From the NCBI GenBank assembly GCA_017435905.1, contig JAFSEB010000063.1, forward strand, positions 1 through 64,000: a DNA stretch of 64,000 bases, written 5' to 3'. A model generated the notes under the pieces. It searched no databases. It was not told the origin of the DNA and saw only the letters and a list, made by a program, of their open reading frames with translations. This DNA comes from Clostridia bacterium. Lineage in GTDB: Bacteria; Bacillota; Clostridia; Christensenellales; CAG-138. Position numbers and translations under genes: made by a program. Below, piece after piece: positions 25,122 to 43,280 of this stretch; within the stretch, counting starts at the first letter, position 1; each line of letters starts with the position of its first letter.

Positions 25122-26954
25122 ATGGCAAAGCGGAAACAGACCCGAAGGATCAGCAGGCATGCAGTGCGCCGCCGGAAATTTATCGTGCGCAGGATCGTGC
25201 TTCTTTTGTTGCTGCTGGCGGTGATCGCAGGGCTGACGCTTTTGCTGATCCGTATTTTTTCCGGAGATATTGCGCCCAAGGAGCAGCCGGAAGATCCTCT
25301 TCCCACCGTGATGCCGGAAGCAACACCTGCGCCTACACCGCCGCCGCCCACATCATTGCCTGCGGGGCTTGATGTCACGCCGCAGTCTGCGGACATGCTT
25401 TCCGCCATCGGTTTTCGCGGCGAGATCATGGACAAGCGGGATGAGGTCTCATCCTACATAAGACCGGAGCCCATCAGCTTCGGATCGGGGGATGAATACA
25501 CATCCCTTCGGGGCATTGGCACATACGGTGCGAACAATTACAGAAACAGCTTTACTTACGGCGTGCAGAACGTTTCCACGCAAACCCTTTCCCGTGTGTG
25601 GGATACCACCATCGGCACCCTTGATTGCGGTGAGGATGGCGTCTGGGCAGGCATCGGCTGGACGGGTATGCCCCTTATCGTGCAGTGGGATGAAACCGTA
25701 AGGCCTTTCCTTGGCGTATATGATGAGTTCAAAACAAAAGAAGGGTTTACGGAAGTCATCTATCCCGCCATGGATGGCAATATCTACTTCAAAGAGCTTT
25801 CTACGGGAAAGAATACCCGTGCGCCGCTGTATCTTGGCGTTGTCACAAAGGGTACGGCTACCCTTGATCCCCGTGGATATCCGCTTCTATATACGGGGCA
25901 GGGCATCATGAGCACCAGCGATGAAGGCACCCGGGGCGCCTGGTTCCGTGTCATTTCCCTGATCGATAATTCCGTCATTTGGGATTTCGGCGGACGCGAT
26001 CCCTTCTCGCCCCGCGAATGGCAGGCTTACGATTCCTCCGCCATGGTGGATGCGGAAACGGATACGCTGATCGTTGCGGGCGAAAACGGCGTTCTCTATA
26101 CGGTGAAGCTCAATACCGCATTTGACAGCATCAACGGCACGGTCAGCGTTTCGCCCGATGCGCTCACCAAGTACCGCTACAGCGCAAACGGCTACGGAAA
26201 CGGCGATAATGACAGGCAGTGGGGCATTGAAAGCTCCCCTGTATTCTGGAAGAATTATGCGTTCTTTACCGATAACGGCGGTTATCTGCAGTGTGTGGAT
26301 CTCAATACCATGCAGATCGTCTATGCAAAGGATGTGACCGATGACGGCGACGGCGGCCTTGTGCTGGAAGAAGACTATGAGGCAGGAACGCTGTACCTTT
26401 ATACCGCAAACGCCGTTGCCACGCAGGATGGCATCAGCGGCGGTTATGGCAAGAACTATCACAGAAAAATAAACGCCCTGACGGGCGAGATCGTTTGGGA
26501 AAAGGCGTGGGATGCTTCAAGCGGCAGCAGCACCACCAATGGCGGCACGCTGTCAACGCCCCACGTGGGTCACGGTGCCATCGAGGATCTTGTGATCTAT
26601 AATTCCTCCTGTATTCCCACCACGGTAAACGGGGAAGCGGTGGTCGGCGGCAGGATCGCAGCCTATGACAAAAAGACGGGGCAGGTAGTCTGGAGCCACG
26701 AGCAGGCTGCGGATTACTGGAGCTCACCGGTTGTGATCTACGACGCTGCAGAAAATGCATATTTGCTGCAGTGCGACAGGGGCGGCATCCTGACCATGCA
26801 CGATGCCCGTACCGGCGAAGTGCTCACCACCATTGATCTTGGATCCCGTATCGATGCAACACCTGCCGTATTCAACAACATGCTCGTTGTCGGTACAAGG
26901 GGCACGGGCGGCAGCGGTGAAGCACAGAAGATCATCGGTATCCGTATCGGTTAA
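25122..26954 (+). CDS. Membrane-anchored PQQ-like beta-propeller protein
   Basis: The 610-residue protein has a basic N-terminus, one membrane segment (RIVLLLLLLAVIAGLTLLLI), a Pro/Thr-rich linker (EATPAPTPPPPTS) and an outer domain made of propeller blades: DARTGEVLTTIDLGSRIDAT, IAAYDKKTGQVVWSH and INALTGEIVWEKAWDAS show the repeated Gly-x-x-hydrophobic-Trp blade ends. It resembles PQQ-binding-like repeat proteins of Clostridia; there is no sign of a catalytic site. AGGAGGGGCC precedes the ATG. Confidence 0.75.
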   Translation: MAKRKQTRRISRHAVRRRKFIVRRIVLLLLLLAVIAGLTLLLIRIFSGDIAPKEQPEDPLPTVMPEATPAPTPPPPTSLPAGLDVTPQSADMLSAIGFRGEIMDKRDEVSSYIRPEPISFGSGDEYTSLRGIGTYGANNYRNSFTYGVQNVSTQTLSRVWDTTIGTLDCGEDGVWAGIGWTGMPLIVQWDETVRPFLGVYDEFKTKEGFTEVIYPAMDGNIYFKELSTGKNTRAPLYLGVVTKGTATLDPRGYPLLYTGQGIMSTSDEGTRGAWFRVISLIDNSVIWDFGGRDPFSPREWQAYDSSAMVDAETDTLIVAGENGVLYTVKLNTAFDSINGTVSVSPDALTKYRYSANGYGNGDNDRQWGIESSPVFWKNYAFFTDNGGYLQCVDLNTMQIVYAKDVTDDGDGGLVLEEDYEAGTLYLYTANAVATQDGISGGYGKNYHRKINALTGEIVWEKAWDASSGSSTTNGGTLSTPHVGHGAIEDLVIYNSSCIPTTVNGEAVVGGRIAAYDKKTGQVVWSHEQAADYWSSPVVIYDAAENAYLLQCDRGGILTMHDARTGEVLTTIDLGSRIDATPAVFNNMLVVGTRGTGGSGEAQKIIGIRIG

Positions 26955-27310
26955 TTGATGGGGAGGATCGCAAACAGCAGCACGCCGAACAGATAGGATG
27001 CGCCGTTGAACAGAAGCGAAAGCAGAAACGGTTTCTTTCTTTCGGGAAGAAGGCTGCGCAAAAGGGCTCCTTCGGAAAGGGTGACCGCAGCTTCAAGGGC
27101 AAGCACCAGAAGAAGCGGCGCTGCTTTGCCGCAAAGGATGCCGATCAAACCAAGCACCATATTGAGAAGTGGATTTGTCAAAAGATTGATGAGGAACAGC
27201 AAGTGCTGTTCCTCTTTTTTAAAACGGAAAAGGGCCGCAATGCCCCCCTCGATTAAAACTGTGAGGGCAAGCGGCACAAGATAATACAAGATCGATTGCA
27301 GAAGCTGCAT
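26951..27310 (-). CDS. Small multi-pass membrane protein
   Basis: The 119-residue protein has about four membrane segments (ILYYLVPLALTVLIEGGIAA, LINLLTNPLLNMVLGLIGIL, LLLVLALEAAVTLSEGALL, LLSLLFNGASYLFGVLLFAI). ATG 27310 has AGGAAG 8 nt upstream; ATG 27316 overlaps the previous stop as TGATG but is too close to that site. No family is recognised. It is the last gene of the minus-strand operon that contains an MFS transporter and three short membrane proteins, and converges on the propeller gene, sharing 4 bases with its end. Confidence 0.65.
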   Translation of the reverse strand: MQLLQSILYYLVPLALTVLIEGGIAALFRFKKEEQHLLFLINLLTNPLLNMVLGLIGILCGKAAPLLLVLALEAAVTLSEGALLRSLLPERKKPFLLSLLFNGASYLFGVLLFAILPIN

Positions 27311-27315
27311 CGGCA

Positions 27316-27456
27316 TCACTTCCTGTTTTTCTTACATTTCAAAAAGACCAAAATAGCGGCAAAAACAATGATGATGCCGATCACTGCCAGAAAAACGTCA
27401 TTGTTACCGTCCGATGCAACGGGCGTGGGCATAATGAGATCAAGAAACACGGGCAT
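27316..27456 (-). CDS. Short single-pass membrane protein 1 (46 aa)
   Basis: The 46-residue product starts MPVFLDLIMPTPVASDGNND, then has one membrane segment (VFLAVIGIIIVFAAILVFL) and a basic tail KCKKNRK. The ATG at 27456 is preceded by AGGAAAGGAA. It resembles its two upstream neighbours in length, FLD/MLD motif near the N-terminus, acidic or Pro-rich linker, membrane segment and Lys-rich end, so the three probably arose by duplication. It is predicted N-out, C-in from the positive tail. Function unknown. Confidence 0.6.
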   Translation of the reverse strand: MPVFLDLIMPTPVASDGNNDVFLAVIGIIIVFAAILVFLKCKKNRK

Positions 27457-27480
27457 AAAAGCAGATTCCTTTCCTGGGGC

Positions 27481-27621
27481 TTACTTTTTGTTCTTTTTGA
27501 TGGCACGGATAATAAAGTATGCAGCAACAGCAACGATCCCAATGCCAAAGAGGATCGGCAGCAGAGCGAAAGCAAGGATCAGCCCCGGGGCAGCAACGTC
27601 GAGCATAATGGGAAGCAGCAT
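27481..27621 (-). CDS. Short single-pass membrane protein 2 (46 aa)
   Basis: The 46-residue product starts MLLPIMLDVAAPGLILAF and continues with a membrane segment (LLPILFGIGIVAVAAYFIIR) and the tail AIKKNKK. The last twelve residues (FIIRAIKKNKK) closely match those of protein 3 (FIIRALKKRK). AAAGGAG lies 6 nt before the ATG. It follows protein 3 by 15 nt. Confidence 0.62.
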   Translation of the reverse strand: MLLPIMLDVAAPGLILAFALLPILFGIGIVAVAAYFIIRAIKKNKK

Positions 27622-27636
27622 GGCGGTCTCCTTTCC

Positions 27637-27780
27637 TTATTTGCGTTTTTTCAGCGCACGGATAATGAAAAACAGCGCTGCCAGCACAACGATAACGCCG
27701 ATGTAAATGGGCAGCGGAGAATAAAGCAGCATGTCGATGGCGCTTGGCTCCGCAGCGTCAAGGAAAACGGGGTACAGCAT
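27637..27780 (-). CDS. Short single-pass membrane protein 3 (47 aa)
   Basis: The 47-residue product starts MLYPVFLDAAEPSAIDMLLY, then has a membrane segment (PIYIGVIVVLAALFFIIR) and the tail ALKKRK. AAGGAGG lies 7 nt before the ATG. The gene follows the MFS transporter gene by 12 nt and is the first of the three tandem short genes. Confidence 0.62.
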   Translation of the reverse strand: MLYPVFLDAAEPSAIDMLLYSPLPIYIGVIVVLAALFFIIRALKKRK

Positions 27781-27792
27781 AGTGGATCCTCC

Positions 27793-28857
27793 TTATTGCA
27801 TGGATTGTTCCTGAGGGAAAAACTCGTCTGCAGGCAAAACGGCGGCAGACTGTTTTGGACGAAGGGAGAAAAAGAGAAGAAACGCCGCAAAAAGCGTCAA
27901 TGCAGCCATCATTGGCAGGGATGCTTTGTAACCGTCCGGCAGCGCATAAAGCGGTGCGCTGCCAAGGAACAACGCCAGCGTTGTCAGCCCAAAGCCAAAG
28001 CCCGCATGGCCGGGCAGCGCAGCCATGACGGCAGAAAGGGTGAGGGGCATTGCAAGGTTGAAAAGGAAAATGCCGCCATAGGTCACAGCGTTTGCAGGGA
28101 AAAAGGCCATCACCAAGCCGCCGATGCCAACGCCAAGAAGCCCTACGATGCGGTAGGGGATCCCCCTTGTGAGGATGCCGCCGAGAAACTTTCCGAAAAA
28201 GGAGGCAGTAGCACCGAGGAGCACAAACATGGCGGTACCGCTCAGCGTTTCTACCGTAAAGCCCGCAAAGGAACGGATGCCGATGGAAACAAGGCAGCAC
28301 ATGATCGCACCGGCGCCAATGTGATCCATCGGGGAGGGGAGACGGATCTCCTCGCAGTGCCGTGGTGCGCCGCTGCCTCCCAGCCAAATACAGCCGATGG
28401 CAGCAAGAAGCAGCAGCACCAAAAACAGCGGGGAAAGCAGGCCGCCCTTGCCGGAAAGCGTACCAAGGGCGACGCCAAGGGCACCCGGTGCCACAAAGAT
28501 GCCTGCAAACAGCGCATCACCCGGGCGATGGCGGAGGGAAGTGACGGCACCGCCCACATGGAAAAGGGCATTGCCGACGCCAAGCAGCACCACGCTGACA
28601 ATGGGATAGGCAAGGGAAAGCACACCCCATGCCACAAGTCCGCAGCCAAGCACGGTATAGGGACGGGCATCATCCGTGCGGTCGATGAGCGCACCGAGGG
28701 GTGCCTGCAAAGCGAATGCAAGAAAGTTATAAAGAAGGATCAGAACGGGTGCATGCTCTCCACGCAGGGCGGCGGACCAAAACGCAAAAAAGCAGGAAAG
28801 ATCCACCGTAAAGTGTGCTGCGGCATGAAACGCAAGCCGTCTTTTTTCGCCGGTCAT
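27793..28857 (-). CDS. MFS transporter
   Basis: The 354-residue protein has ten to twelve membrane segments and the loop motif LGALIDRTDDARPY, a variant of the MFS motif A (G-x-x-x-D-R) between segments 2 and 3. Other segments are VLSLAYPIVSVVLLGVGNAL and YGGIFLFNLAMPLTLSAVMA. It resembles the small MFS proteins of gut Clostridia with no assigned substrate. ATG 28857 has GGAGG 5-6 nt upstream; the longer frame has no ribosome site. It is the first gene of the operon with the three short membrane proteins. Confidence 0.8.
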   Translation of the reverse strand: MTGEKRRLAFHAAAHFTVDLSCFFAFWSAALRGEHAPVLILLYNFLAFALQAPLGALIDRTDDARPYTVLGCGLVAWGVLSLAYPIVSVVLLGVGNALFHVGGAVTSLRHRPGDALFAGIFVAPGALGVALGTLSGKGGLLSPLFLVLLLLAAIGCIWLGGSGAPRHCEEIRLPSPMDHIGAGAIMCCLVSIGIRSFAGFTVETLSGTAMFVLLGATASFFGKFLGGILTRGIPYRIVGLLGVGIGGLVMAFFPANAVTYGGIFLFNLAMPLTLSAVMAALPGHAGFGFGLTTLALFLGSAPLYALPDGYKASLPMMAALTLFAAFLLFFSLRPKQSAAVLPADEFFPQEQSMQ

Positions 28858-42975: not shown

Positions 42976-43013
42976 ATAAAAAACGGGAAATCTTCGATTT
43001 GGAAGATTCCCGT
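42976..43013 (-). terminator. Expression-platform terminator of TPP riboswitch B
   Basis: On the minus strand CGGGAATCTTC pairs with GAAGATTTCCCG over a short loop and is followed by TTTTTTATTT, just before the thiS ribosome site. Confidence 0.85.
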
Positions 43014-43026
43014 GATGTTCACAAAA

Positions 43027-43108
43027 GTCCCTACGTTGGCATTATCCAAATCAGGTATATGGGTCGAAGGTCACACCTTCCTCTCAGCCTGCAAACACAA
43101 GCTCCCCG
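43027..43108 (-). ncRNA. TPP riboswitch B (proximal to thiS)
   Basis: On the minus strand the element reads GGGGAGC, then GGCTGAGAGGAAGG, GACCCATATACCTGATTTGG and ATAATGCCAACGTAGGGA, matching the THI-box consensus (CTGAGA, ACCTGAT--GGATAATGCC, GTAGGGA). It binds thiamine diphosphate and controls the terminator at 42976-43013. Confidence 0.95.
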
Positions 43109-43122
43109 CATATGAAATTGTG

Positions 43123-43160: not shown

Positions 43161-43177
43161 AAAAAATCCGAAAAGAT

Positions 43178-43263
43178 GACTTCCTACGGCGGCATTATCC
43201 GCATCAGGTTATAGGGTCGAAGTTTGGTTACTTCCTCTCAGCCTGCAAACACAAGCTCCCCTG
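43178..43263 (-). ncRNA. TPP riboswitch A (distal, first transcribed)
   Basis: On the minus strand it reads GGGGAGC, GGCTGAGAGGAAG, GACCCTATAACCTGATGCGG and ATAATGCCGCCGTAGGAA. It is nearly identical to riboswitch B in the first arm (GAGCTTGTGTTTGCAGGCTG in both) and differs in the P3 and P4 arms. Confidence 0.95.
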
Positions 43264-43280
43264 TATTTCTTTCGCTTAAC

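Follow-up and report, generated by a model that had tools for sequence, protein, structure and literature searches.

Three tandem genes for 46–47-aa membrane proteins, here called s1, s2, and s3, are conserved members of an operon that also encodes an MFS transporter and a four-helix membrane protein, TNP (named after its N-x-x-T-N-P motif). Judging from sequence, we give about even chances to the reading that s1–s3 are small single-pass subunits of a three-part system composed of a divergent MFS transporter, TNP, and a single-pass partner. The broader proposal of a new three-component system, in which an MFS transporter and a new, duplicated four-helix family are joined by exchangeable partners ranging from SH3b proteins to 46-aa docking-only forms, is put forward more tentatively, at somewhat less than even chances. 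The cassette itself is not an artefact; a literature search found nothing describing an MFS/TNP/partner cassette, which is, as far as the literature is searchable, undescribed.

Gene Organization of the Locus

The window is the whole analyzed stretch of DNA (64,000 nucleotides, Clostridia bacterium). As read from the sequence and the ORF list, five genes on its minus strand form a tight operon in the order MFS, s1, s2, s3, TNP:

27793..28857, minus strand: gene for a divergent MFS transporter (P0005, 354 aa), with homologs present in 47 of the 103 genomes from the family
27788..27793, minus strand: Shine–Dalgarno sequence AGGAGG of s1, overlapping the MFS stop codon (direct sequence reading)
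27637..27780, minus strand: s1, 47-aa mini-protein, MLYPVFLDAAEPS... followed by one transmembrane segment, end KKRK; ortholog in genome G053
27628..27633, minus strand: Shine–Dalgarno sequence AAGGAG of s2 (direct sequence reading)
27481..27621, minus strand: s2, 46-aa mini-protein, MLLPIMLDVAAPG... followed by one transmembrane segment, end KKNKK; kept in 5 of 5 genus members
27467..27472, minus strand: weak Shine–Dalgarno-like site AAAGGA of s3 (direct sequence reading)
27316..27456, minus strand: s3, 46-aa mini-protein, MPVFLDLIMPTP... followed by one transmembrane segment, end KKNRK; the most diverged copy
26951..27316, minus strand: TNP, four-helix membrane protein of 121 aa (start 27316) or 119 aa (start 27310)

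The intergenic gaps down the operon are 12 nt (MFS/s1), 15 nt (s1/s2), and 24 nt (s2/s3); the s3/TNP junction is a TGATG overlap, and the TNP stop codon is overlapped by the stop of a convergent PQQ-like gene. The sequence-only reading had claimed three tandem 46–47-aa genes between an MFS and a multi-pass protein gene, which is confirmed (47, 46, and 46 aa), and good ribosome sites for all of them, which holds for s1 and s2 but not for the weaker site of s3.

The Rfam scan gave no RNA element close to the operon, and the sigma-70 promoter scan found none, an absence that is not informative. On the plus strand, a stem of 10 pairs closed by a 4-base loop, with six T after it (27191–27214; GAGGAACAGCAAGTGCTGTTCCTC TTTTTT), resembles a plus-strand terminator; it lies inside the coding region of TNP, some 240 bases beyond the convergent PQQ-like gene. 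Elsewhere in the window, tandem TPP riboswitch aptamers are seen at positions 43011–43118 and 43164–43272 of the minus strand (65.2 and 65.7 bits), with 45 bases between them.

Conservation and Paralogy of the Mini-Genes

The frames of the mini-genes are kept in related genomes and show a synonymous bias there. Compared with the nearest relative, G053, pN/pS is 0.34 for s1, 0.17 for s2, and 0.64 for s3; the values of TNP and MFS are 0.36 and 0.21. Pairs involving s2 or its G053 ortholog range from 0.17 to 0.34; s3 shows weak constraint (0.55 to 0.65); and every ortholog pair of mini-genes has pN/pS below 1. By these sequence comparisons, s1, s2, and s3 are all confirmed to be under purifying selection and to be real conserved genes. 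Short open frames are frequent by chance, and many are present in the ORF list of the window; however, the proposal that the small frames arose in this way is refuted by their conservation, by the ribosome sites, and by the motif and position conserved across 32 species, which leaves it a negligible probability. As for the earlier suggestion that these genes are too short for usual gene finders, a length of 140 nt is not under the usual cut-offs. An antisense open frame overlapping the mini-genes was rejected, as it is not kept in all relatives.

The paralogy suggested earlier is borne out by identities of 51% between s1 and s2 and 35% between s1 and s3. Across five genus members the mini-gene is present in 3, 3, 2, 2, and 1 copies, and in the window's genome s1–s3 are the sole short-gene matches of the mini-protein profile, with weaker matches inside long frames. 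The shared plan that had been noticed (FLD or MLD, Pro, a single membrane segment, and a tail rich in Lys) is indeed present: of the 57 mini-proteins that lack a signal peptide, 52 carry the Asp..Pro motif, versus 15.6 in shuffles, its Asp being mostly at positions 4–8. The mean number of Lys and Arg residues around the helix is 0.53 before and 5.19 after it, which suggests an Nout–Cin orientation. Mini-proteins of three loci (L009, L054, and L064) have a signal peptide that ends ahead of the Asp..Pro motif or its variant.

Distribution and Composition of the Cassette

TNP adjoins MFS in 30 of 30 loci read. With TNP profiles, matches came from 43 of 297 genomes for the order and 23 of 398 for the phylum, and the three-component set is found outside the order too (L064, L077). 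A genome-contig scan with the MFS protein gave one relative only, and tblastn against phage and plasmid collections gave no TNP homolog.

Cassettes were counted as one locus per species, with 49 free-standing TNP loci. The adjacency holds over many species, with an MFS gene on the same strand in 48 of the 49 loci, L059 being the exception; since 30 of them were found via MFS and 19 via TNP, this count is not independent for the former 30. A third component is likewise present in 48 of 49, the sole exception being L071, where the locus stops at a contig end. In 32 loci it consists of mini-proteins, with 1 to 5 copies each, and in 22 it is, by profile, an SH3-type protein, some loci having both kinds; in L038 the SH3-type match is probably only to the shared membrane segment and tail. 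In genome G021 (L059/L120), TNP is accompanied by a mini-protein with a signal peptide, and there is no MFS within 9 kb.

Three architectures are observed: (i) mini-protein(s) with MFS and TNP, in either order; (ii) MFS and TNP together with an exported protein of some 245–400 aa, whose ectodomain is followed by a membrane segment and a basic stretch and whose mature N-terminus is typically ADVIxEP; and (iii), in 26 loci with no MFS nearby, a signal peptide, an outer domain, and TNP in one protein. The fused proteins mostly have a signal peptide followed by ADVGPKPS or ANSAEPPS, or a variant. A mature N-terminus similar to that of the mini-proteins is thus joined to TNP where MFS is absent, which links the mini-proteins to TNP as well as to MFS. 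Two loci (L121 in G077 and L122 in G033) come from genomes that have both an MFS cassette and a separate fused exported-domain–TNP protein, hence, the two are not simple replacements of each other.

SH3-Type Partners as Relatives of the Mini-Proteins

In the operon of L106 the order is MFS, TNP, a mini-protein with a signal peptide, and two SH3-type proteins. Here, the mini-protein shares 47 of 75 residues with the SH3-type protein next to it, almost all of them at one or the other end, and the final 100 nt of the two genes are 82% identical. These shared ends suggest that a mini-protein may be an SH3b partner without the outer domain, by loss or gain, with the direct evidence coming from L106 only. 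More generally, mini-proteins and SH3b partners are alike in their N-terminal Asp..Pro, their membrane segment, and their tail rich in Lys. In L106, the second SH3-type gene is immediately followed by a gene for a 403-aa membrane protein (L106:2092–3303, minus strand).

SH3-type partners of two lineages match Pfam SH3_3 (2e-21 and 3e-18). The AlphaFold2 model of the main SH3-type protein (pLDDT 84) is matched by Foldseek to the SH3b domains of lysostaphin and endolysin and to InlB (probability up to 1.00, E about 0.001–0.06), and by this model the ectodomain consists of two SH3b (cell-wall-binding) folds. In the PDB sequence search, the SH3-type profile gave chance matches only, many against membrane segments. 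The mini-proteins were rejected as SH3b proteins themselves: 46–47 aa leaves no room for the domain and there is no Pfam SH3 match, so they are relatives instead. Tandem SH3-type proteins with a membrane segment and a basic tail are also found away from MFS and TNP (L107, L108, and L109 in G101); in this one genome, the SH3-type partner can thus act elsewhere.

The mini-proteins might alternatively be stand-alone regulators of MFS alone, similar to AcrZ with AcrB or MgtS with PitA and MgtA, TNP being an operon passenger. Many such regulators are known (PMC10710835), the mini-proteins fit in size, in having one helix, and in their place in the operon, and they lie between MFS and TNP in several lineages besides the genus of the window. 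However, the fused proteins join such an exported segment to TNP with no MFS nearby, L059 has a mini-protein and TNP with MFS absent, and the known regulators were not seen here with large SH3b-domain relatives in the same slot; we consider this alternative unlikely. The sequence-only reading had proposed subunits or regulators of the transporter: the transporter link stands, through adjacency, while the reading is incomplete, because the fused proteins tie such an exported segment to TNP and because the mini-proteins are relatives of the SH3b partner, which that reading could not see.

A further alternative is an envelope sensing or wall-anchoring device, in which MFS would move an envelope lipid or precursor and the partners would sense it or position it at the wall. 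SH3b ectodomains of known proteins bind cell walls. MFS lipid transporters in cell-wall synthesis exist, e.g., LtaA, which flips the lipoteichoic-acid anchor (PMC8866510). On the other side, the loci read show no conserved lipid-synthesis genes next to the cassette. Such a device, which we regard as very doubtful, is compatible with the three-part system rather than opposed to it.

TNP and Family Assignment

Seven residues are invariant in 49 diverse TNP sequences: E21, N42, T45, E73, E80, N102, and S105. The triads E21-N42-T45 and E80-N102-S105 have near-equal spacing, and hhalign scores the two halves at 19.3, versus at most 12.0 for control segments, which together point to an internal duplication. 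The AlphaFold2 model has four helices (pLDDT 91.6). Lys and Arg are concentrated in loops 1–2 and 3–4, hence, both ends are likely to face out, in agreement with the fused proteins. No TNP family or model was found in Pfam or NCBIfam; in the PDB, the TNP profile gave nothing by sequence, and the fold search gave no Foldseek match with E below 1.7; the best VIA-align Z of 5.9 is at the level of common helical bundles, TNP being a small bundle.

The MFS protein P0005 scores 8.9 bits against Pfam MFS_1 (cut-off 33.4; E 0.86), and four of its eight aligned relatives match MFS_1 at E up to 0.1, the best at 1.9e-7. P0005 is thus a putative MFS member by homology to these relatives, not by its own score. 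The MFS profile gave nothing in the PDB by sequence.

No valid Pfam or NCBIfam family was obtained for the mini-proteins, the main SH3-type partner, or the fused proteins; the PHROGs scan gave nothing valid for the mini-proteins and TNP; and PADLOC gave no defence-system match for the five operon proteins up to E 0.01. Two candidate assignments were rejected and a third was set aside. TIGR01167 (LPXTG) matches s3 (P0003) at 17.5 versus 15.9, but over profile positions 8–34 only, and s3 has neither an LPXTG motif nor a signal peptide; the MgtS-like family PF22865 scores s3 at 14.6 bits versus 27; and a type I toxin-like reading does not fit the conserved operon and the SH3b relatives.

As substrates of an MFS/TNP unit, the mini-proteins would be peptides for export or display (signal, adhesive, or similar to leaderless bacteriocins); this would explain the tandem arrangement, the copy number of 1 to 5, the fast change of s3, the Lys-rich ends, and the transporter neighbour. 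Against this stand the conserved plan of an anchor whose Lys tail is of cytoplasmic type; the 245–400-aa anchored SH3b protein that alternatively occupies the same slot; the lack of any cleavage motif or immunity gene in what was seen; and the absence of any peptide family at cut-off in PHROGs, Pfam, or NCBIfam, bar the partial LPXTG-anchor match without the motif. This makes a substrate role distinctly unlikely.

Proposed Mechanism

For the preferred three-part system, we propose that TNP and MFS form one unit. The mini-protein, with its N-terminus facing out and its Lys tail in, would pack on TNP through the Asp..Pro segment and helix, and through TNP on MFS; such docking may shape or stabilise MFS transport. 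Small membrane proteins can insert post-translationally (PMC7549839). The invariant intramembrane Glu/Asn/Thr/Ser set of TNP would be a working centre, and its acidic and amide residues suggest that it may bind an ion. In its long form, the partner would use SH3b to hold the complex at the cell wall or couple it to the wall; a mini-protein would retain the docking part and drop the wall-binding part; and several paralogs may yield interchangeable complexes. Several points count against this system: gene adjacency by itself does not tell a subunit apart from a substrate expressed with it or from an envelope protein that acts independently, SH3-type proteins also stand away from MFS and TNP in G101, the species of L059/L120 has a mini-protein and TNP but no MFS, s3 is weakly constrained, and the Foldseek E-values for SH3b exceed 0.001.

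The analysis gives a family to small membrane genes previously without one and ties it to TNP and to a larger SH3b relative, in what would be a clear case of a small and a large protein differing by the loss or gain of an entire outer domain. TNP itself is a membrane family of wide occurrence, with no model found in Pfam or NCBIfam, and the putative three-part membrane system occurs in many Clostridia. If the partner docks on TNP, the role of a small protein in Gram-positive MFS transport becomes directly testable.

Comparison With Known Systems

TNP resembles the CrcB/Fluc fluoride channel in length and in having four helices, with a weak NCBIfam match (E 0.039); it was rejected as a member, since the CrcB equivalog model scores 14.6 bits versus a cut-off of 119. 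Relatives of P0005 match the major facilitator superfamily (MFS_1, PF07690), from which P0005 differs by the company of TNP and a single-pass partner. The long partner of the cassette, with two outer SH3b folds in its model, is similar to bacterial SH3 proteins (SH3_3, PF08239; the SH3b domains of lysostaphin and InlB), whereas the mini-proteins of the window have no SH3b domain and retain only the ends.

There is also a likeness to small proteins with a single pass that contact transporters and tune them, an established class that includes AcrZ, MgtS, and their kin: about 30–50 aa, with one helix, they tune a large transporter via direct contact (PMC10710835). By analogy, the cassette may work in the same way, the mini-proteins being putative members by likeness. 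Unlike AcrZ and MgtS, they occur as several paralogs per operon, share Asp..Pro at the N-terminus as well as a Lys tail, and are only predicted to make contact; their slot is also filled by large SH3b-domain relatives.
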